Shown here in pieces: positions 1-10,741 of a DNA stretch of 60,307 bases. Below the pieces are notes generated by a model, which made no database searches, was not told the DNA's origin, and worked only from the letters and a program-made list of their open reading frames with translations. A program made the translations under genes and the position numbers. The stretch is taken from assembly GCA_007693965.1 (NCBI GenBank), contig RECQ01000027.1, positions 1 to 60,307 on the forward strand, in the 5' to 3' direction. Each line of letters opens with the position of its first letter. Position 1 is the stretch's first letter. The DNA comes from Phycisphaeraceae bacterium (lineage in GTDB: Bacteria > Planctomycetota > Phycisphaerae > Phycisphaerales > UBA1924).

Positions 1-41
1 ATCGAGCGGCCGAAGACGAACGGGCGTGGAAAGCGGAGGAG

Positions 42-1787
42 ATGCTGCGCGCTGTCATTGAACAGTCCCCCCCACCCGATGCCGAAGGAGTCTCGACTCG
101 AAGAAGAATCGAGCGGTATCTCGATGCGCTGGAGCGCGAGGAGAGCGCATCGAGCCCTTCTGAATCCCCGTCCGAGCCCGAGACGCTGCCAGATGATCCC
201 CGGGCAGCCGCCTCCACGCCGCAGACCCCCGACTCCGACGCTGTCCCGCCGATCCAGGTTCCCGGCCACGAGCTGCTCTGCCCTGTGCCCGATGGCAGAG
301 GCGGCTTCGGCCAGGTGTGGATCGCGAGGCATTCGCTGCTCAAGCACGATCGCGCCTGCAAGCTGATCGAACGCGGCAAGGCGATCGAGCTGGAGGGGCT
401 GCGTCTGCTCAAGCAGCGCATCTCCTCGCATCCGAATCTGTTCCCCATCGAGGAAGTCGGCGAGGTGGGCGCGTGGCTCTACTGCCTGATGCCGCTGGCG
501 GAGTCCGCCTCGACCTCGCCGGGGCTGCTCGACCCCTCGGGCTACCGGCCGCTTACGCTCGGCGCCTTTCTCAAGCGCGAGGGGAAACGCGCTCCGTGCG
601 AGGCCGCGGCCATCGGCGCCGAACTCGCCGAGGGATTGCGGCATCTTCACACCCAGGATGTCACCCACGGCGACATCAAGCCCGCCAACATCCTGCGGCT
701 TGGCGAACGCTGGGCGCTCGCCGATTACGGCCTGCTCCGCGATGGTTCTTCGCCCAGAGGCGAAGGACACACACCGGGCTACACGCCCCCGGAGGGCCCT
801 GGCTCGGAACAGGCCGATCAGTACGCGCTGGGCGTCGTGCTGATGGCGCTGCTGATGAAGTGGCCGCCGAAGAAGCTGTCTGAGTTCCGTGAGATCGCCA
901 CCGAGCAGCTCAAGCTTGATGAAGCGGGTGCGCAACTGCGCGAGATCATCCTCAGGGCCACCGCGAAGGATCCGAGAGATCGCTTCGATTCCGCCGCCGA
1001 ACTCGCCGAGGCGCTGCGGGCGCTCGCGCACGAACCTGCGCAAACCGCTGAGCCGCCGCTGAAACAACCTTGGAAGCGATGGGCGCCCGCCATCGCGGCG
1101 CTGGCCGTGCTTGCGCTTCTCTTCATGATTGTTCCGAATCTCTTCCCGAAGTCAGAACCGATCGCGGCGGACGCGCCGGACGCGGCGGCGGCGCCATCGC
1201 CGCTGCGCATCGAGAGCTTCGAGGTGCAGCACTACCGCTACGACCCGATCGCGGATCTGATCCACCGCGTCGGCCCCATCAGCGCCGACAATCCCGCCGC
1301 CCGCGCCGACGACGATGTCACCATCCACGCGCGATTCACCACGCCAGTGCACTTCTACCTTCTCTCGCTCGACGCCGATGGACGGGTCCGCCCGCGCGTT
1401 CCCGCCTCACCGACTGAAGCTCCGGCGCCCGCCGATTCACTCGACTACCCCTCCGACCCCGCCGCCGATCCCGAGGGCTACCTCTTCAACCTCAGCGCCG
1501 GCCCCGGCGCGCAGGGCTTCATGCTGCTGGTCTCGGATGATCCGCTCCCGCCATGGTCGGACTGGATCGCCACCCGCGGCGAGCCCACCTGGTCGCGCGA
1601 AACACTGCCCGCCTCCGGCGTCATCCTCTTCGACGGCGTCGAAACCCGCTACGCAAGCGCGATGCGCGACCCCATGCCCCGCCGCGGCGCCATCGTCCTC
1701 GACCCCATCGACTGGGCGAAATCGCAAAGTGAGCTGGTGGACATCCGCTTCATCGCATTTCCCGTGCTGCCCAATGAGAGGAACTGA
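42..1787 (+). CDS. Ser/Thr protein kinase, membrane-anchored, with extracytoplasmic C-terminal domain
   Basis: A Hanks-type kinase expected to phosphorylate Ser/Thr in partner proteins. Visible landmarks are a Gly-rich loop GRGGFG (about residues 85-90), an ACK lysine near 107, a catalytic loop HGDIKPAN (209-216, HGD instead of HRD), DYG in place of DFG (228-230) and TPGYTPPE in the activation segment (244-251). A Pro/Ser-rich N-terminal stretch precedes the kinase, a single transmembrane helix lies at about 348-366, and the C-terminal 200 residues contain a beta-rich segment reminiscent of DUF4384 ('VHFYLLSLDADG'). The frame is open to the left edge and the GGAG lies directly against this ATG, so the true start may be outside the window. 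The stop is 2 bp before the next gene, so the two are probably co-transcribed. HGD and DYG are tolerated in active kinases, so activity is likely but unproven. Confidence 0.85.
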   Translation: MLRAVIEQSPPPDAEGVSTRRRIERYLDALEREESASSPSESPSEPETLPDDPRAAASTPQTPDSDAVPPIQVPGHELLCPVPDGRGGFGQVWIARHSLLKHDRACKLIERGKAIELEGLRLLKQRISSHPNLFPIEEVGEVGAWLYCLMPLAESASTSPGLLDPSGYRPLTLGAFLKREGKRAPCEAAAIGAELAEGLRHLHTQDVTHGDIKPANILRLGERWALADYGLLRDGSSPRGEGHTPGYTPPEGPGSEQADQYALGVVLMALLMKWPPKKLSEFREIATEQLKLDEAGAQLREIILRATAKDPRDRFDSAAELAEALRALAHEPAQTAEPPLKQPWKRWAPAIAALAVLALLFMIVPNLFPKSEPIAADAPDAAAAPSPLRIESFEVQHYRYDPIADLIHRVGPISADNPAARADDDVTIHARFTTPVHFYLLSLDADGRVRPRVPASPTEAPAPADSLDYPSDPAADPEGYLFNLSAGPGAQGFMLLVSDDPLPPWSDWIATRGEPTWSRETLPASGVILFDGVETRYASAMRDPMPRRGAIVLDPIDWAKSQSELVDIRFIAFPVLPNERN

Positions 1788-1789
1788 GT

Positions 1790-4700
1790 ATGAACACCTT
1801 CATCCGAGTTGCGATCATCCTGTCGCTGGCAGCGCTGTACGCCGCGTCGACCGCCGCGCGGGCCCAGACCACCGATGCGCAGGCCTCCGATGCGGAGTCG
1901 GCGGAGGAGCAGGCGCCGTTTCGTCTGAACCTGCCGGAATGGAACCCCGACCCCGAGAGCCTGCCGCCGGAGCTGCGTCCGCTGGATGTCGTGCGGCCGG
2001 CGCTGCCGAAGGATGTGGCGGCGGAGATCGCCGAGCTGGAGGCACGGATCGCGGATCTGGAGCCGCTGGGTCTGTCCGCCGAGACGCGCGAGGCGCAGGA
2101 CGCGGCGTTGGACGAGGCGATCGCGCTGGCCGAGCGCGTGCTGGCGCTCCGCGTCGAACACCAGGGGAACACGGGTGGGGCCGTCCGCTGGCGCGACTCG
2201 GCGGGGGATTCGGCAGAGTGGTATGAGGTGATCGAGGCGCGGCAAGCCCTAGCCAACCTGCGCCTGCTGCGCGGGTTGGACGACACGGCCCGCGCCGAAC
2301 TCGCCTCACTGGCCGGAACAGATGCCCAAGTCGGACGCCTCTACGGTGCGGGCGACTATGCCGAGGCGCAGGCGATCACCGAGCGCCAGCTAGACATCCG
2401 CCGGCGCATTCTGGGGGAGGCGCACCCAAGTACGCTGATCTCCATCGGCAACATGGGCTCCATGCTCCGGGCGCAGGGCCAACTCGCCGAGGCTGAGCCG
2501 TACTACCGTGAGGCGCTGGAGGGCCGCCGCGTCCTGGGGGGTGAGCACCCGAGCACTCTCAACTCCATCAGCAACATGGGCGTCCTGCTCTGGTCGCAGG
2601 GCAAGCTGTCCGAGGCCGAGCCGTACTGGCGCGAGGCGCTTGAGGTCCGTCGCCGCGTGCAGGGCGATGAGCACCCGGATACGCTGATCTCCATCAACAA
2701 CATGGGCGCCCTGCTCCGGTCCCAGGGCCGTCTGGCCGAGGCCAACCCGTACTACCGCGAGGCGCTGGAGGGCCGCCGTCGCGTGCTGGGTGAGGCGCAC
2801 CTGAGAACGCTGGAGTCGATCAACAACATGGGCGTCCTGCTCGGGTCGCAGGGCCGTCTGTCCGAGGCCGAGCCGTACCGGCGCGAGGCACTGGAGGGCT
2901 TTCGCCGCGTCCTGGGCGATGAGCATGCGAGCACGCTGCACAGCATCAACAACATGGGCGTCCTGCTCCAGATGCAGGGCAAGCTTTCCGAGGCCGAGCC
3001 GTACCAACGCGAGGCGCTAGAGATCCGCCGCCGCGTCCTGGGCGATGCGCACCTAGACACGCTGGATAGCATCAACAACATGGGCTACCTGCTCCAGTCG
3101 CAGGGCATGTTGTTCGAGGCCGAGCCGTACTTCAGAGAAGCGCTGGAGGGGAGCCGTCGTGTCCTGGGCGAGGCCCACCCGAGCACGCTGCGCTCGATTA
3201 ACAACTTGGGCGCCCTGCTCGAGAAGCAGGGCAAATCCGCCGAGGCCGAGCCGTACTGGCGCGCCGCGCTGGAGGGCAATCGCCGGGTCCTGGGCGATGC
3301 GCACCCGAACACGCTGGCCAGCATCAACAACATGGGCGGCCTGCTCAAGAAGCAAGGCAAACTCGCCGAGGCCGAGCCGTACTACCGCGAGGCGCTGGAG
3401 GCCCGCCGTCGCGTGCTGGGCGGCGAGCATCCGGACACGCTGATTACGATCAACAACATGGGCGTCATGCTCAGTGATCAGGGCAAGCTGTCCGACGCCG
3501 AGCCGCTCTACCGCGAGGCGCTGGAGGCCCGCCGCCGCTTGCTGGGGGATGAGCACCCGCAGACGCTCATCTCTATCGGCAACATGGGCTTACTGCTCCG
3601 GGCGCAGGGCCGCCTCGCCGAGGCCGAGCCGTACTATCGCGAGGCGCTGGAGGGCAACCGGCGCGTGCTGGGCGGCGAGCATCCGGACACGCTGATTACG
3701 ATCAACAACATGGGCGTCATGCTCCAGGCGCAAGGCAGGCTCGCCGAGGCCGAGCCGTACTACCGCGAAGCGCTGTCGACGGCGGAGAAGCTGCGTCTGG
3801 ATGTGATCGGCGATGCGCAGGCGCGGGCGCAATTCGCGGGCAGGCTCAATCTCCCCGGCATCGCGTCGGCATACGCGCGGACATTGGTCGAGCTTGGCCG
3901 GGCCGCGGAGGCGCTGGGCGTGCTGGAGCGTGGGCGCGGACGGGCCGGGCTGGACATGTTCGCGGGCGGACGCGGCGCGGCGGAGGAGGCGCTGCGCCTG
4001 ACCGCCGATCCAGAGCGCCTGGCCCGCTACAACGCGGCGCTCGAGGCGGAGGAATCAGCGCAGCGCGCCCTCTTCGAAGCCGAGGCGCGCCTGAGCGCTG
4101 CGTCCGATGAAGACAAGGCAGAGTGGACCCGCCGCGTGCAGGAGGCCCGGCGGTCGCTCAATGAGCGGACCGCGGCTGTATTCAGCGAACTCCGCGGTCT
4201 GGTACCGACGCTCGACCCGCTCCCGGCCGAGCGGATACTCGCAACGTTGGCGCCCGGCGAGGCGCTGTTGACCTACGCCTTCACGGATGAAAGCGCAATC
4301 GCGCTGGTCGCCCGCGACGGTGAAGTGACCGGCGTGACGCTGGCGAAGGACAGGGACGAGGCCGCGGCCCTGCGCGCGGCGGTCGCCGATCTGCGCAGCG
4401 CGATCGCATCGAGACCGGTCGGCGGCGAGGCGATGGATGTGGGCGTGGCCGCCGCGGCGCGCAAGGCGGCGGCGCCGGAAGAACTCCGCGCCCTGCTCGA
4501 GGGCGCGGGCTCGGTCATCATCGTCGCCGACGGGCCGCTGGCCGGCCTGCCTATGGAGCTGCTGCTCGAGGATCTGCCGATCGCCTACGCCCCCAGCGCG
4601 ACGATCGCGCTGCGGCCGCGGCTGGATGGCGACGCCCGGTCGAGCGCCATCGCGTCTTCGGCCCCGCTGGGCGCCGGCGTCGTCCTGGGCGATCCGGTCT

Positions 4701-5881
4701 TTGCGGGCTTCGAGCGTGAAGAACCCGACTACCCCGAAGCCGGCGTGCTGCTAACCATGGTGACGCAGGGCTCGAACGCGGCCATCGCCGGCCTGACACG
4801 CGGCGATGTGCTGCTCAGTTACGGAGAGCACGAACTCGCATCTGCCGAAGACCTCGGCCCCGCGATGGACGCAACGACCGAGGCGCTCACCACGCGCGGC
4901 GTCACGGAAAACAACCGTCCCATCATCGCCCGAGCCTGGCGGCTGGGTGAGGACGGTCAGGGCGAAGAGATCGAGGTGGCGCTGGCCACCGGTTCCATGG
5001 GTGTGGTTCCTTCACAAGCCCCGCCCGCCGATGGCCTGCGTTCGATGGCGACCTTCGACCGCTCGGCGGACACGCTCGCCGCCAATGCCTCGGCGCTGGA
5101 GCAGATCCGCTTCTACGGCGGGGGTCTGAGCCCGCTGCCCAACACGCGACTCGAGGCCGCGGCCATCGCGGCGATGCTGGGCGAGGGCGCGACGCTGCTG
5201 CTGGGCGCCGATGCGACTGCGCCGCGCCTGCGCGAGGCGGTTGAATCGAATCCGCCGCGTGTCCTGCACCTGGCGACGCACGGACTGCTGGGCAGCGCAG
5301 ATCGCCCGCTGCTGGCGAGTCTGGCGCTGACTGCGCCGGATGAGCCCACGGGCGATGACAACGGCTTCGTCACACTCGGCGACATCCTGGCCACCTGGGG
5401 CGCGCAGCTCGGCGGCACGGAGCTGGTCGCGCTCAGCGCCTGCGACACCGCCCACGGCGTGCGTCAGGGCGACACCATGATGGCGTTGCCTCTGGGGCTG
5501 CTCATCGCCGGCGCTGACAGCGTGCTGGCGAGTCTGTGGAAGGTGGACGACCGCGCGACAGCGCTGCTCATGGCGCGCTTCTACGCCAACTGGCTGGGCA
5601 AGGCCGAGTCAGCCCGCGAGATCGACGGCGTTCGCTATAGCGCGGGCGAGGCGATGCCCAAGATGGCCGCGCTGCGCGAGGCGCAGGTGTGGCTGCGCTC
5701 GCTCACCGCCGAGGATCTCGACCGGCTTCAGGACGATACCGGCCAGACCATCGCCCAGAGCGTCTCGCGCGATCCCAGACCCCGACCCGCACCACTCGCC
5801 GCCACACCCAAGCAGACTTCACACCCCTACGACCACCCCTACTACTGGGCCGCGTTCGTGCTGTATGGGAGTCCGGATTGA
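1790..5881 (+). CDS. Secreted TPR - PDZ - CHAT (caspase-like) protein
   Basis: The 1363-residue product begins with a signal peptide (hydrophobic stretch at residues 7-24, then ARAQ). Eleven almost uniform 42-residue TPRs of the kinesin-light-chain type follow at about 214-663, then a coiled region and a CHAT domain from about 800 to the C-terminus. The CHAT catalytic dyad appears intact: His1164 in LATHG and Cys1218 in LSACDTA. Within the CHAT region, at about 975-1065, sits a PDZ-like insert (AGLTRGDVLLSYGEHEL). CHAT domains are caspase-like cysteine proteases and TPRs usually recruit a partner; the PDZ may bind peptide C-termini. The 2-bp gap to the kinase suggests a kinase/protease signalling pair, with the kinase sensor side and this protein on the same (outer) side of the membrane. 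Substrate and trigger cannot be read from the sequence. Confidence 0.88.
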   Translation: MNTFIRVAIILSLAALYAASTAARAQTTDAQASDAESAEEQAPFRLNLPEWNPDPESLPPELRPLDVVRPALPKDVAAEIAELEARIADLEPLGLSAETREAQDAALDEAIALAERVLALRVEHQGNTGGAVRWRDSAGDSAEWYEVIEARQALANLRLLRGLDDTARAELASLAGTDAQVGRLYGAGDYAEAQAITERQLDIRRRILGEAHPSTLISIGNMGSMLRAQGQLAEAEPYYREALEGRRVLGGEHPSTLNSISNMGVLLWSQGKLSEAEPYWREALEVRRRVQGDEHPDTLISINNMGALLRSQGRLAEANPYYREALEGRRRVLGEAHLRTLESINNMGVLLGSQGRLSEAEPYRREALEGFRRVLGDEHASTLHSINNMGVLLQMQGKLSEAEPYQREALEIRRRVLGDAHLDTLDSINNMGYLLQSQGMLFEAEPYFREALEGSRRVLGEAHPSTLRSINNLGALLEKQGKSAEAEPYWRAALEGNRRVLGDAHPNTLASINNMGGLLKKQGKLAEAEPYYREALEARRRVLGGEHPDTLITINNMGVMLSDQGKLSDAEPLYREALEARRRLLGDEHPQTLISIGNMGLLLRAQGRLAEAEPYYREALEGNRRVLGGEHPDTLITINNMGVMLQAQGRLAEAEPYYREALSTAEKLRLDVIGDAQARAQFAGRLNLPGIASAYARTLVELGRAAEALGVLERGRGRAGLDMFAGGRGAAEEALRLTADPERLARYNAALEAEESAQRALFEAEARLSAASDEDKAEWTRRVQEARRSLNERTAAVFSELRGLVPTLDPLPAERILATLAPGEALLTYAFTDESAIALVARDGEVTGVTLAKDRDEAAALRAAVADLRSAIASRPVGGEAMDVGVAAAARKAAAPEELRALLEGAGSVIIVADGPLAGLPMELLLEDLPIAYAPSATIALRPRLDGDARSSAIASSAPLGAGVVLGDPVFAGFEREEPDYPEAGVLLTMVTQGSNAAIAGLTRGDVLLSYGEHELASAEDLGPAMDATTEALTTRGVTENNRPIIARAWRLGEDGQGEEIEVALATGSMGVVPSQAPPADGLRSMATFDRSADTLAANASALEQIRFYGGGLSPLPNTRLEAAAIAAMLGEGATLLLGADATAPRLREAVESNPPRVLHLATHGLLGSADRPLLASLALTAPDEPTGDDNGFVTLGDILATWGAQLGGTELVALSACDTAHGVRQGDTMMALPLGLLIAGADSVLASLWKVDDRATALLMARFYANWLGKAESAREIDGVRYSAGEAMPKMAALREAQVWLRSLTAEDLDRLQDDTGQTIAQSVSRDPRPRPAPLAATPKQTSHPYDHPYYWAAFVLYGSPD
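2432..3777 (+). repeat. Eleven tandem 126-bp TPR-coding repeats
   Basis: Each unit encodes 42 residues of the pattern TL.SINNMG.LL..QGKL.EAEP with REALE and a closing LG.EHP. Some units are near-identical in DNA, for example those around 3430-3480 and 3682-3735, suggesting homogenisation by unequal recombination. These are protein-coding repeats, not a CRISPR array. Confidence 0.9.
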
Positions 5882-6064: not shown

Positions 6065-6366
6065 AGAGCATCCTCAGCGTTCGCGTAGCGCTGTTCGGCG
6101 CATGATCAAGTTGCGCCTTGGCCGTGGCCTTCGTAGTCTGCCCTTCGGCGGGCCGGAAGAAGGCCATGGATGGGCGCTGCGTACTCTCAGGATCTGCGGG
6201 ACCGTGTGCTGGCGGCGTACGACCGAGGGATGAAGACCAGGGAGATCGCCGAGGTTTTTTGCGTCAGCAAGGCGTGGGCGCGTCGACCATCTACACGGCG
6301 CTCAAGGAGCTGAACCTGTCTTACATAAAAAGACGGTTTATGCCTCAGATACCTCGGAGATTCGAG
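6065..6366 (+). mobile_element. IS630-family insertion sequence, left-end remnant
   Basis: The end sequence AGAGCATCCTCAG (6065-6077) matches the ends of the remnants near 55.8 and 58.0-58.6 kb. A transposase start follows at 6170 (MGAAYSQDLRDRVLAAYDRG, residues 1-20, then KTREIAEVF), the typical N-terminal helix-turn-helix of IS630 transposases. The reading frame breaks near 6285 and a piece resembling the HTH-to-DDE linker (TIYTALKELNL) follows, so an internal segment is missing. No DDE residues remain. The leader 6066-6170 is clearly similar to the reverse complement of 58525-58625. Confidence 0.7.
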
Positions 6367-7899: not shown

Positions 7900-7973
7900 G
7901 CGCGCGTAGAACAATTACGTAGTGCACCTGATTTATGCATCAGGAGGTTGGGGTCCGACTCCCTCCGCACGTA
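7900..7973 (+). tRNA. tRNA-like sequence, Arg/Ile-type scaffold, probably degenerate
   Basis: A 74-nt cloverleaf can be drawn by eye. The acceptor GCGCGCG pairs with CGCACGT in 6 of 7 positions with A73. The D-arm GAAC/GTGC has 3 of 4 pairs. The anticodon stem CCTGA/TCAGG has 5 of 5 pairs. The variable part is AGGTT, and the T-loop is TCCGACT with 3 Watson-Crick pairs plus a G-T wobble. Defects are an eight-base anticodon loop (TTTATGCA), so no anticodon can be assigned, and a T-stem one base short. No CCA is encoded. It is either a pseudogene or a divergent mobile-element tRNA. Confidence 0.4.
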
Positions 7974-8134: not shown

Positions 8135-10741
8135 ATGCAAGTGCCCGGCGAGAGCGATGAACTTCCCACTTCGCAGACGGCGCCGCCTGGAGCCCCGGGC
8201 GCCTCGGAAGCCCACGACGCGGCGCCCCCTCCGTCTCAAATCGGCAAGTATGTGATCGAGCGCGAAATCGGGCGTGGGGGAATGGGATCGGTCTATCTCG
8301 GGGTGCGCGACGAGGGCGGCTTCAAGCGGCTCGTGGCCATCAAGGTTGTGCGCCGCGGAATGGACACCGAGGACATCATCCGGCGCTTCGAGCTGGAGCG
8401 GCAGCTTCTGGCGGCGCTGAATCATCCAAACATCGCGCGCTTCTACGAGGGCGGCGTCACCGAGGACGGGCGCCCCTATTTCGTCATGGAGCACATCGAG
8501 GGCCGGCCCCTCGATCGCTACTGCGAATCGAACCGCCTCAGCGTCAACGAACGGCTGGAGTTGTTCCGCAATATCTGCCTCGCCGTCCATCACGCCCACC
8601 AGAATCTCGTCGTTCACCGCGACATCAAGCCGGGCAACATCCTGGTCACGAAGGAGGGCGTGCCCAAGCTCGTCGATTTCGGCATCGCCAAGCTGCTCAA
8701 CCCCGGCCTCTCCGCCCGCAATCCCCTGCCAACGATGCCGGACTTGCGCCTGCTGACGCCGGAATACGCCAGCCCGGAGCAGGTGCGCGGCGAGCCGATC
8801 ACGACGGCCAGCGACGTGTATTCACTCGGCGTCGTGCTCTACGAGACGCTCACGGGCCGTCGCCCGTACACACTGCGAGCGCGGTCACTGCACGAGATCG
8901 AGCGGACCGTCTGCGACATGGTCCCTGAGCGCCCGAGCCAGATGGCCACCCGCTGGCCCGCAAAGCAGCCGGACGCGCAGGTGGCTCAGCTGGAGAAGTC
9001 GTCATCGATCGTCGGCCGTGAAGGAGGGCCGCACCGTTTGCGCAAGCGTCTCGCCGGCGACATCGACAACATCATCATGATGGCGCTGCGCAAGGAGCCT
9101 CACAGGCGATACGCCTCGGCGGAGCAACTCGGCGAGGACATCCGGCGCCATCTGAACAACCTGCCGGTGTTGGCTCGCTCGGACTCGCGCTGGCATCACA
9201 TGTCGAAGTTCGTCAAGCGGAACAAGCTGGGAATCGGCGCGGCGGCGGCGATCGCACTGCTGCTCTTCGTCGGCTCCGGCGCCACGGCGTGGCAGGCGCA
9301 CAAAGCGGAGCTGGCGCGGCGCGATGCGGAGATGGAGCGAGAACGCGCGGAGCGGCGGTTCGAGCAGGTGCGCGAACTGGCCCACACTTTCATGTTCGAC
9401 TTTCACGACGCGATCCATCCCCTGGCGGGCTCGACGCAGGCGCGAGAGCTGCTCGCGAGCACGGCGCTGGTGTATCTTGACAGCCTGTCGCGCGATGCGG
9501 CGGGCGACGCGGACCTGCGCAGGGAGCTGGCGTCGGGCTACGAGCGCGTCGGCGACGTGCTTGGGCGCATGCGCACGGGCAACATCGGGGATCTGTCGCG
9601 GGCGAGAGAGAGTTATGAGCAGGCGCTGCGTCTGCGCACGGAGCTTGCAAGAGAGCGACCGGAAGATGTAGGAGTGCGGGCCGGGCTTTCGAATATCCAC
9701 ATGCGGATGGGGGATCTGCTGAGCCAACTGGGGGACTCGTTGGGATCGCTGGAGCATTTCCGGAAGGCTCTGCGCATCCGGGAGGAGCTTTCTGATCAGT
9801 CGCCGGGGAACTCGCCACTGCGGCGCGGCGTGGCGGTGACGCTTCAGTCCGTGGGGGACGCGCTGATGCGCACGGGGGACTACGATGGGGCGGAGATTCA
9901 CTATGAACGGTCGGTGTCGATCCGGCAGTCGCTTCTGGACGAGCGTCCCGCGGATCTGGACGTGAACCAACTGCGTCGGGATCTTTCGACAGCGCATCTG
10001 CGGCTGGGGCACTTCATGGAGCTCGCGCAGTGCGATGAGGAGCGCGCGCTGCCGCACTATCGGGCGGCGCTGCGGCTTGGACTTGAGCTGCTGGAGGCAT
10101 CGCCGCAGAGCGCCTGGGCACACCGGCGCGTGATGCGCGCGCATGATTATCTGGCGCGGACGCTTCTATCACTGGGGAGGCATGACGAGGCGGAGCGGCA
10201 CGTGGGGGAGATCATGCGCATCGCGGCGGCGCTGCATGAATCCGACCCTGCAAGCGTTCAGTCGATCCGGGATCTGCTGCTGGCGCGGGAGACGACGGGG
10301 CTGGCGGCGCTGGCTCTCGGGAATGCGGAGGAGGCACTGGAGGGCTTCCGTGAGCAACGCGGATTGGCGGAGCGGATGCTGGACCAGGATCCGCTGAGCG
10401 CTGAGGCGCGCCGGCGCCTGCGCCAAGCCGACATGCGCATCGGGGAAGCGCTGCTGGCGCTTGGCCGTTGGGAGGAGACGGCGGATGAACTGCGGGAGGC
10501 GCTTCGAGGGTTTGAACGGCTGGCGGAGTCGGATCCGGGCGACATCGAGGTGAAACGGGAGATCGCGGGCGCGCTCAGGCTGCTGGGGAACGCGCTGGCG
10601 TCCAGCGGTGACCGGGCGGGGGCGACAGCAATGTATGAGCGGTCGCTGGAGACGCTGCGGGATATGGAGATCACCGCGGACGACCCGTGCGCGGTGCGAA
10701 ATGCGATCGCGGAACTGGAGAGGCTGCTGGCGGAATCGTGA
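8135..10741 (+). CDS. PknB-type Ser/Thr kinase with transmembrane helix and TPR C-terminus
   Basis: The 868-residue protein is a canonical planctomycete kinase. The kinase domain spans about 37-345 with GRGGMGSV (46-53), catalytic K70, HRDIKPGN (161-168), DFG (181-183) and the TPEYASPEQ activation segment. A single transmembrane helix lies at about 365-385, followed by a charged coiled-coil-like stretch and several degenerate TPRs to the C-terminus (…YEQALRLRTEL, HFRKALRIREEL). All catalytic residues are present, so an active signalling kinase is expected. The ATG at 8135 is supported by CAGGAG six bases upstream. In planctomycetes such kinases often sit beside ECF sigma genes; no intact one is here, but a broken ECF gene lies at 57.3-57.9 kb. 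Partner and stimulus are unknown. Confidence 0.93.
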   Translation: MQVPGESDELPTSQTAPPGAPGASEAHDAAPPPSQIGKYVIEREIGRGGMGSVYLGVRDEGGFKRLVAIKVVRRGMDTEDIIRRFELERQLLAALNHPNIARFYEGGVTEDGRPYFVMEHIEGRPLDRYCESNRLSVNERLELFRNICLAVHHAHQNLVVHRDIKPGNILVTKEGVPKLVDFGIAKLLNPGLSARNPLPTMPDLRLLTPEYASPEQVRGEPITTASDVYSLGVVLYETLTGRRPYTLRARSLHEIERTVCDMVPERPSQMATRWPAKQPDAQVAQLEKSSSIVGREGGPHRLRKRLAGDIDNIIMMALRKEPHRRYASAEQLGEDIRRHLNNLPVLARSDSRWHHMSKFVKRNKLGIGAAAAIALLLFVGSGATAWQAHKAELARRDAEMERERAERRFEQVRELAHTFMFDFHDAIHPLAGSTQARELLASTALVYLDSLSRDAAGDADLRRELASGYERVGDVLGRMRTGNIGDLSRARESYEQALRLRTELARERPEDVGVRAGLSNIHMRMGDLLSQLGDSLGSLEHFRKALRIREELSDQSPGNSPLRRGVAVTLQSVGDALMRTGDYDGAEIHYERSVSIRQSLLDERPADLDVNQLRRDLSTAHLRLGHFMELAQCDEERALPHYRAALRLGLELLEASPQSAWAHRRVMRAHDYLARTLLSLGRHDEAERHVGEIMRIAAALHESDPASVQSIRDLLLARETTGLAALALGNAEEALEGFREQRGLAERMLDQDPLSAEARRRLRQADMRIGEALLALGRWEETADELREALRGFERLAESDPGDIEVKREIAGALRLLGNALASSGDRAGATAMYERSLETLRDMEITADDPCAVRNAIAELERLLAES

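Follow-up and report, generated by a model that had tools for sequence, protein, structure and literature searches.

TPR-CHAT proteins, in which tetratricopeptide repeats (TPRs) accompany a caspase-like CHAT domain, are tied to extracytoplasmic function (ECF) sigma factors in two known systems. In Myxococcus xanthus, DdvA unites in one chain a membrane protein with an anti-sigma domain and an outer TPR-CHAT part. It is the anti-sigma factor of DdvS, which becomes active once DdvA is inactivated (PMC4374960) and which controls an antiphage island (PMC12288465). In the type III-E CRISPR system Craspase, Csx29 is a protease whose substrate, Csx30, inhibits an ECF sigma factor (PMC10028731); separately, some ECF sigma factors are activated by kinases (PMC8103513). 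Here we describe two adjacent genes from a Phycisphaeraceae bacterium (assembly GCA_007693965.1), found at the start of a 60,307-nucleotide stretch of contig RECQ01000027.1 that we call the window. They encode a membrane kinase and a TPR-CHAT protein with a predicted signal peptide. Distantly related planctomycetes carry the same pair, often next to the gene for a stress-type sigma factor, so that it probably represents a conserved cassette for signalling from the outside inwards.

The cassette resembles each of the described systems in part. With DdvA (PDB 8rot) and DdvS it has in common the CHAT fold and sequence, a membrane link and an ECF sigma partner; however, the cassette consists of a kinase and a separate, presumptively exported TPR-CHAT protein, often with a PDZ domain. 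It departs from a DdvA-type anti-sigma factor in that a kinase takes the place in the membrane, and the TPR-CHAT part is a protein of its own that begins with a signal-peptide-like segment. The Csx29-Csx30-CASP-sigma system likewise ties a TPR-CHAT protease to ECF sigma control and supplies our best fold match (Z 26.6), whereas Csx29 works in an RNA-guided Cas7-11 complex with no kinase; no search for Cas7-11, Csx30 or CRISPR arrays was made here. EcfP/PknT, EcfK/PknS and the planctomycete ECF-kinase pairs have a kinase beside an ECF sigma gene, as do many cassette members, but the cassette adds the TPR-CHAT gene and does not clearly show the uncharged replacement of the DAED motif. Finally, at TPR-CHAT/CHASE2 kinase loci of Nostocales, as in the cassette, an exported TPR-CHAT protein is encoded next to a membrane kinase whose sensor domain lies on the outer side; these loci differ in having CHASE2 rather than DUF4384, convergent genes and no PDZ detectable by our insert profile. 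Because exported CHAT proteins are common and given the fold relatives described below, the cassette looks like a kinase-based variant that joins ECF-kinase signalling to TPR-CHAT/sigma switching, outside the DdvA and Craspase families. We found no description of such a pair in the open-access literature, a scope that leaves subscription papers mostly outside, nor in the accessible part of PMC10907252.

Recurrence of the kinase/TPR-CHAT pair

In the window, the kinase open reading frame (ORF; 42-1787) and the CHAT ORF (1790-5881) are codirectional and separated by 2 bp. A first-pass annotation made from the letters alone had proposed that the two products are functionally linked, and had named beforehand the conservation of the genes as neighbours as the point on which the proposal would stand or fall. 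The pair proves to be conserved, and the link is therefore likely.

Our genome searches scored only part of the first-look candidates, so that their counts are lower bounds. The CHAT part was matched in 28/150 genomes of a sample of relatives, with a close match (74%) in one alone, Phycisphaerales coassembly_bin.61 (G044; JAFIFZ010000072.1). This genome carries an orthologous pair (kinase 53% and CHAT gene 69% identity) whose genes overlap by 4 bp, and a divergent ECF sigma gene lies upstream (Sigma70_ECF 2e-29). The C-terminal part of the kinase, hereafter the ectodomain, had matches in 5/397 genomes of the class and, besides the window's own genome, a close one in G044 only; among 20 CHAT loci fetched from the same order, one, again that of G044 (L032), gave a phmmer match to the window kinase. 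At this locus we also noted a gene for an FHA-SpoIIE phosphatase (L032:11030-12721), convergent with the CHAT gene and 10 bp from it.

Across a phylum-wide sample, CHAT matches at 1e-10 occurred in 123/392 genomes and ectodomain matches at 0.01 in 18/392, the window's own among them. Sixteen of these 18 were examined (G473 and G564 fall outside), and five have the pair: G000, G548, G805, G580 and G573, the last with its partner cut by the contig end within the TPRs. In the rest, the matches are partial and no kinase and CHAT genes stand directly side by side, or the contig runs out (G645).

An unselected test used a six-row ectodomain profile on the order of G805 (10/45 genomes) and the family of G548 (20/170); all 33 listed matches were fetched, G805 and G548 themselves being excluded. 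A TPR(-CHAT) gene directly follows the ectodomain gene, on the same strand and within 360 bp or overlapping, at 23 of the 33 loci, which is 23/31 of those that can be decided (L267 and L273 meet a contig edge). At 18 of the 23 the CHAT profile matches the following ORF (at L269 its first part only), at L262 and L276 the CHAT match lies in the next ORF, and at L270, L272 and L274 the sequence breaks off within the TPRs at a contig end. The ectodomain ORFs of L278 and L269 have no kinase match, and L291 is cut by the contig end. Three more loci have a CHAT gene nearby: a broken copy in L261, one directly upstream in L275 and one 1.8 kb off in L292.

The catalytic His and Cys are intact in all 26 aligned CHAT domains, 21 from the unselected set and five from the earlier pairs, with the window included; this count omits L261 as a broken copy, L269, which is cut before the dyad, and L207, L270, L272 and L274, which are cut inside the TPRs. 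In a tree of 32 CHAT domains, whose deepest forks are weak, the complete pairs from the earlier searches, five in all, are spread over at least three separate positions. The pairing would therefore be either old and often lost, or assembled more than once.

ECF sigma genes, called by our own sigma profile, lie within 1.5 kb at 14/33 unselected loci. In G044 and G805 the kinase gene is beside such a gene, in G805 overlapping it; the corresponding side of the window is cut at the contig edge. The window's own genome has five matches to the G044 sigma factor. The top match (48%, 1.4e-40) is located close to the end of contig C36. Of the remaining four, three are immediate neighbours of a kinase gene and the fourth (C26) is 1.6 kb from one. 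Divergent from the C36 sigma gene is a second TPR gene with a predicted export signal (L224:8854-10837; C36:18853-20836), 83.6% identical in DNA over 906 bp to window positions 1899-2801 and truncated within its repeats where the contig ends. The whole assembly has one CHAT domain, so the C-terminal half of this gene seems to be missing; no sequence overlap was found between C36 and the window's contig, C41, and joining the two is only an idea.

The two predicted proteins

The window begins at base 1 of C41, one of 74 contigs in a 3.48-Mb assembly, and the kinase gene (3-1787, forward strand, as are all features below) has probably lost its 5′ end at this edge. The ORF as called starts with an ATG at 42, the reading frame extends back to base 3 without a stop, and its sequence near and upstream of Met42 (RAWKAEEMLRA) aligns with PWKAEDVLRV in the orthologue. 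For these reasons, and because the contig begins there, translation probably starts beyond the contig edge. The catalytic domain (267-1049; Pkinase E 2.9e-17, 63.4 bits against a cut-off of 31.7) retains the G-loop, HGDIKPAN and DYG motifs, which are also kept in the orthologue and mark a Ser/Thr protein kinase. Hydropathy places a transmembrane helix at 1089-1145, about residues 350-368 of the ORF starting at 42. The 200 residues beyond it form a putative extracytoplasmic DUF4384-like domain (1185-1784), assigned by alignment with the homologous domains of the paired kinases. DUF4384 (PF14326; cut-off 27 bits) scores 14 bits in the window kinase, 22.2 and 21.9 in those of G548 and G580, and 27.3 and 32.5 in those of G805 and G573. 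The membrane kinase with an outer C-terminal part that the first-pass annotation had described just upstream of the CHAT gene is borne out.

The second gene (1790-5881) encodes a protein of 1363 aa whose Pfam domains are TPR, CHAT and PDZ and no others. A signal peptide (1790-1864) was predicted by visual inspection, on the strength of hydropathy together with an AxA site, the hydrophobic segment ending AARA-QTT; the C36 paralogue has a different signal-peptide-like start followed by a conserved mature N-terminus. Eleven repeats of 41-42 residues occupy 2411-3796 (TPR_12 E 1.3e-150). Their number agrees with the first reading, which had called them near-identical, but they are better described as similar, with a mean identity of 69% in amino acids (52-83%) and 76% in DNA; the G044 orthologue has nine. 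A match to the FxSxx-COOH TPR protein (NF040586; 374 bits against 300) was set aside as a repeat cross-match, since its best stretch covers only TPRs 304-594. The CHAT domain (4478-5872) is supported by PF12770 (E 2.7e-49; 168.6 bits against 24) and by the model and fold matches, and the dyad noted at the outset is present, His1164 (codon 5279-5281) within HLATHG and Cys1218 (codon 5441-5443) within SACDT. In domain content and dyad the protein is one of the CHAT peptidases, and endopeptidase activity is predicted.

Export of such a protein had been considered unusual, a view that does not hold. A hydrophobic N-terminal segment, by a crude test, is present in 45/76 complete, non-identical CHAT ORFs of at least 450 residues from loci of 80/105 relatives, against 117/399 control ORFs, and DdvA is a transmembrane precedent; exported CHAT proteins are therefore common.

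A structure prediction of the CHAT region, suggested earlier to see whether the PDZ sits beside the active site and whether a protease site forms, was taken as far as the fold. The AlphaFold2 model (residues 689-1363, 26 sequences; predicted local distance difference test (pLDDT) 79.5, predicted template modelling score 0.75) has the fold of Csx29, separase and DdvA. Foldseek against the PDB returned DdvA first (1.9e-8), followed by the Craspase TPR-CHAT protein and separase. VIA-align gave Z scores of 26.6 for Csx29 (371 residues), 24.9 for separase, 20.6 for DdvA and 18.9 for gingipain, and the alignments with the first three run across the whole model, over about 300-375 residues. Sequence agrees: a profile of 17 CHAT domains found DdvA best among PDB entries (E 2.3e-11), with Craspase proteins at about 2e-8. 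In this alignment DdvA reads LATHG and AACEGG, so that its His and Cys also appear to be present.

The PDZ domain reported inside the CHAT region is confirmed as an HtrA-type insert at 4727-4987 (approximate limits). Although the window insert scores below the Pfam PDZ_6 cut-off (18.1 bits against 27), phmmer matches it to HtrA2 (E 2.5e-5), Foldseek matches the PDZ part to structures of the HtrA2, DegQ and A. aeolicus RseP-homologue PDZ domains (E about 0.01-0.03), and a homologue in L167 has a PDZ at the equivalent place that exceeds the cut-off (28.3 bits). A profile of six inserts, run on 163 CHAT-profile ORFs, found the insert at 14 other loci (L057, which is the same gene as L032, L058, L167, L168, L169, L176, L261-L266, L268 and L278), 65-80 residues past the beginning of the CHAT match. 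These loci include five of the profile's six members, the remaining one being the window, which is outside the searched set; a weak match in L269, whose ORF ends with the contig just inside the insert, is not counted. Ten insert-bearing genes directly adjoin an ectodomain gene (those of the window, G044, G548, L262, L263, L264, L265, L266, L268 and L278). The model shows the insert in the loop that joins the GDP strand to the following core helix; by caspase topology, we take this loop to be at the active-site edge of the sheet.

Other CHAT and kinase loci

Several CHAT genes in the collected genomes have other neighbours. Six cyanobacterial loci (L070, L076, L083, L085, L088 and L092) have an exported TPR-CHAT gene convergent with a kinase gene whose product has 708-712 residues; with the first of these kinases as reference, the remaining five share at least 65% identity with it, and CHASE2 was found in the two scanned. 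In a planctomycete (L172:4665-11696), an exported TPR-CHAT gene is divergent from a CHASE2 kinase gene, with a 332-aa ORF between them. Two CHAT genes lie beside a non-kinase DUF4384 protein (37.3 bits) in L215:1-7209, another CHAT-DUF4384 neighbourhood. A long ORF upstream of an Isosphaeraceae PDZ-CHAT gene (L058:35-5260) was considered as a partner and set aside, having one sub-cut-off Pfam match only. Further CHAT proteins of the window's own order are found in L034, L040, L045, L048, L049 and L041:5187-9560, those of L034, L040 and L045 having no N-terminal hydrophobic segment. In the first five, an ORF of roughly 200-230 aa lies upstream with a 4-bp overlap, and at the three loci where it was scanned, L034, L040 and L049, Pfam gave no match; an S8 subtilase gene follows the CHAT gene in L041 and L049.

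Within the window, a gene at 8135-10741 encodes, as read from its translation, a second kinase followed by a hydrophobic stretch and C-terminal TPRs, perhaps a one-piece form of kinase and outer TPRs. Downstream of the CHAT gene, positions 6170-6330 resemble the start of an IS630-type transposase, presumably a remnant, and 7900-7973 has an Rfam tRNA match (34.5 bits) without an ARAGORN call.

Possible function of the pair

With this architecture, catalytic motifs intact in both proteins, coupled genes, wide conservation and a frequent sigma neighbour, all read from sequence, there are several possible scenarios. The one we favour, at a little under an even chance, is that the pair forms the outer half of a cassette for signalling across the membrane, in which an exported TPR-CHAT protein senses or cleaves and acts on the kinase ectodomain to send a signal inward. 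The kinase would sit in the inner membrane with its catalytic domain inside and its DUF4384-like domain outside, and the TPR-CHAT protein would be exported next to the latter. The TPR array, with the PDZ where there is one, might recognise an envelope or foreign protein, upon which the caspase-like site would be activated or the conformation changed. Next, the CHAT protein would engage or cleave the ectodomain or one of its binding partners, after which the kinase would relay the signal, in many members to the neighbouring ECF sigma factor. The exported protein would be the sensor or the sensor's protease. A narrower version, in which the pair is a protease-activated receptor kinase whose ectodomain is cleaved by an exported, often PDZ-targeted TPR-CHAT partner to drive ECF-sigma transcription, is rather unlikely.

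Several observations weigh against a cassette of this kind. An ECF sigma gene is near only 7/23 direct pairs, and in one of the seven, L290, it is 1.4 kb away on the opposite strand; the C36 sigma gene of the window's own genome is beside the second TPR gene with no kinase between. Five of the 33 unselected ectodomain genes (L277, L282, L287, L288 and L293) have no direct or near CHAT gene, although in L288 one lies about 3 kb away behind the kinase. Conversely, most planctomycete CHAT proteins are outside the cassette: the pair was found at two of 20 picked phylum loci (G548 and G805), a third locus among them having a divergent CHASE2 kinase and some of these contigs ending near the gene. 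The PDZ is absent from several pairs by the insert profile search (e.g., G805), and a stand-alone model of the ectodomain from a two-row alignment reached a pLDDT of 52. As for sigma control, ECF factors activated by kinases have the DAED motif swapped for uncharged residues (PMC8103513). At this position, whose placement is our own, the four kinase-neighbour sigma factors of the window's genome read SATA, QPTA, SATA and QTTA; those of the cassette, however, read RSGE (G044), QRDD (C36) and DPSD (G805). This retention of acidic residues argues against a simple EcfP/PknT-like phospho-switch in the cassette.

The alternative that survives best, though we consider it somewhat improbable, makes the CHAT protein an output: the kinase and sigma factor would sense the envelope and induce the operon, and the exported protease would process surface proteins or kill competitors or the cell itself. 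The CHAT gene is downstream of the kinase gene and tightly coupled to it, its dyad is intact in every case, and many ECF sigma factors autoregulate (PMC10028731). However, the solved ECF-linked relatives, DdvA and Csx29, act upstream of sigma (PMC4374960, PMC10028731), and the gene order is reversed in L275, with CHAT ahead of the kinase.

An unlikely alternative is that the TPR-CHAT protein is a receptor or scaffold which binds the ectodomain and a ligand, its catalysis being unused. Its kinship in fold and sequence with DdvA, a regulator, and the varying repeat number (11 in the window, nine in G044) would suit such a role, but the His and Cys are kept in 26/26 domains over a large divergence, which is more than binding alone requires. 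Much less probable is a defence or self-recognition system, in which the repeats would detect a foreign protein on the surface of the cell, setting off an alarm regulon or death. DdvS does control an antiphage island (PMC12288465), Csx29 belongs to a CRISPR system (PMC10028731), and the PADLOC kinase models PD-T4-6 and mad6 match the window kinase domain (9.4e-25 and 4.5e-23); however, the PADLOC matches, to the kinase domain and to the TPRs (5.9e-24), look generic, and the NCBIfam MADS6 match reaches 62 bits against a cut-off of 460. That the genes are chance neighbours, as a rare ectodomain beside a common CHAT gene (18/392 against 123/392 phylum genomes) might allow, has next to no probability given direct pairs at 23/31 decidable unselected loci.

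Returning to the signalling cassette, its implications would extend beyond this locus. If the receptor-kinase reading is true, it would be a third coupling of a TPR-CHAT protein to an ECF sigma factor besides DdvA and Craspase. In planctomycetes, ECF sigma-kinase gene pairs are common, and few of them have a known input. Should a conserved subset of them take their input from the exported caspase-like protein, a sensor of ECF-kinase pairs would have been named, and TPR-CHAT proteins would be tied to ECF sigma control in three architectures, which would suggest an old link between the caspase fold and bacterial transcriptional alarm.

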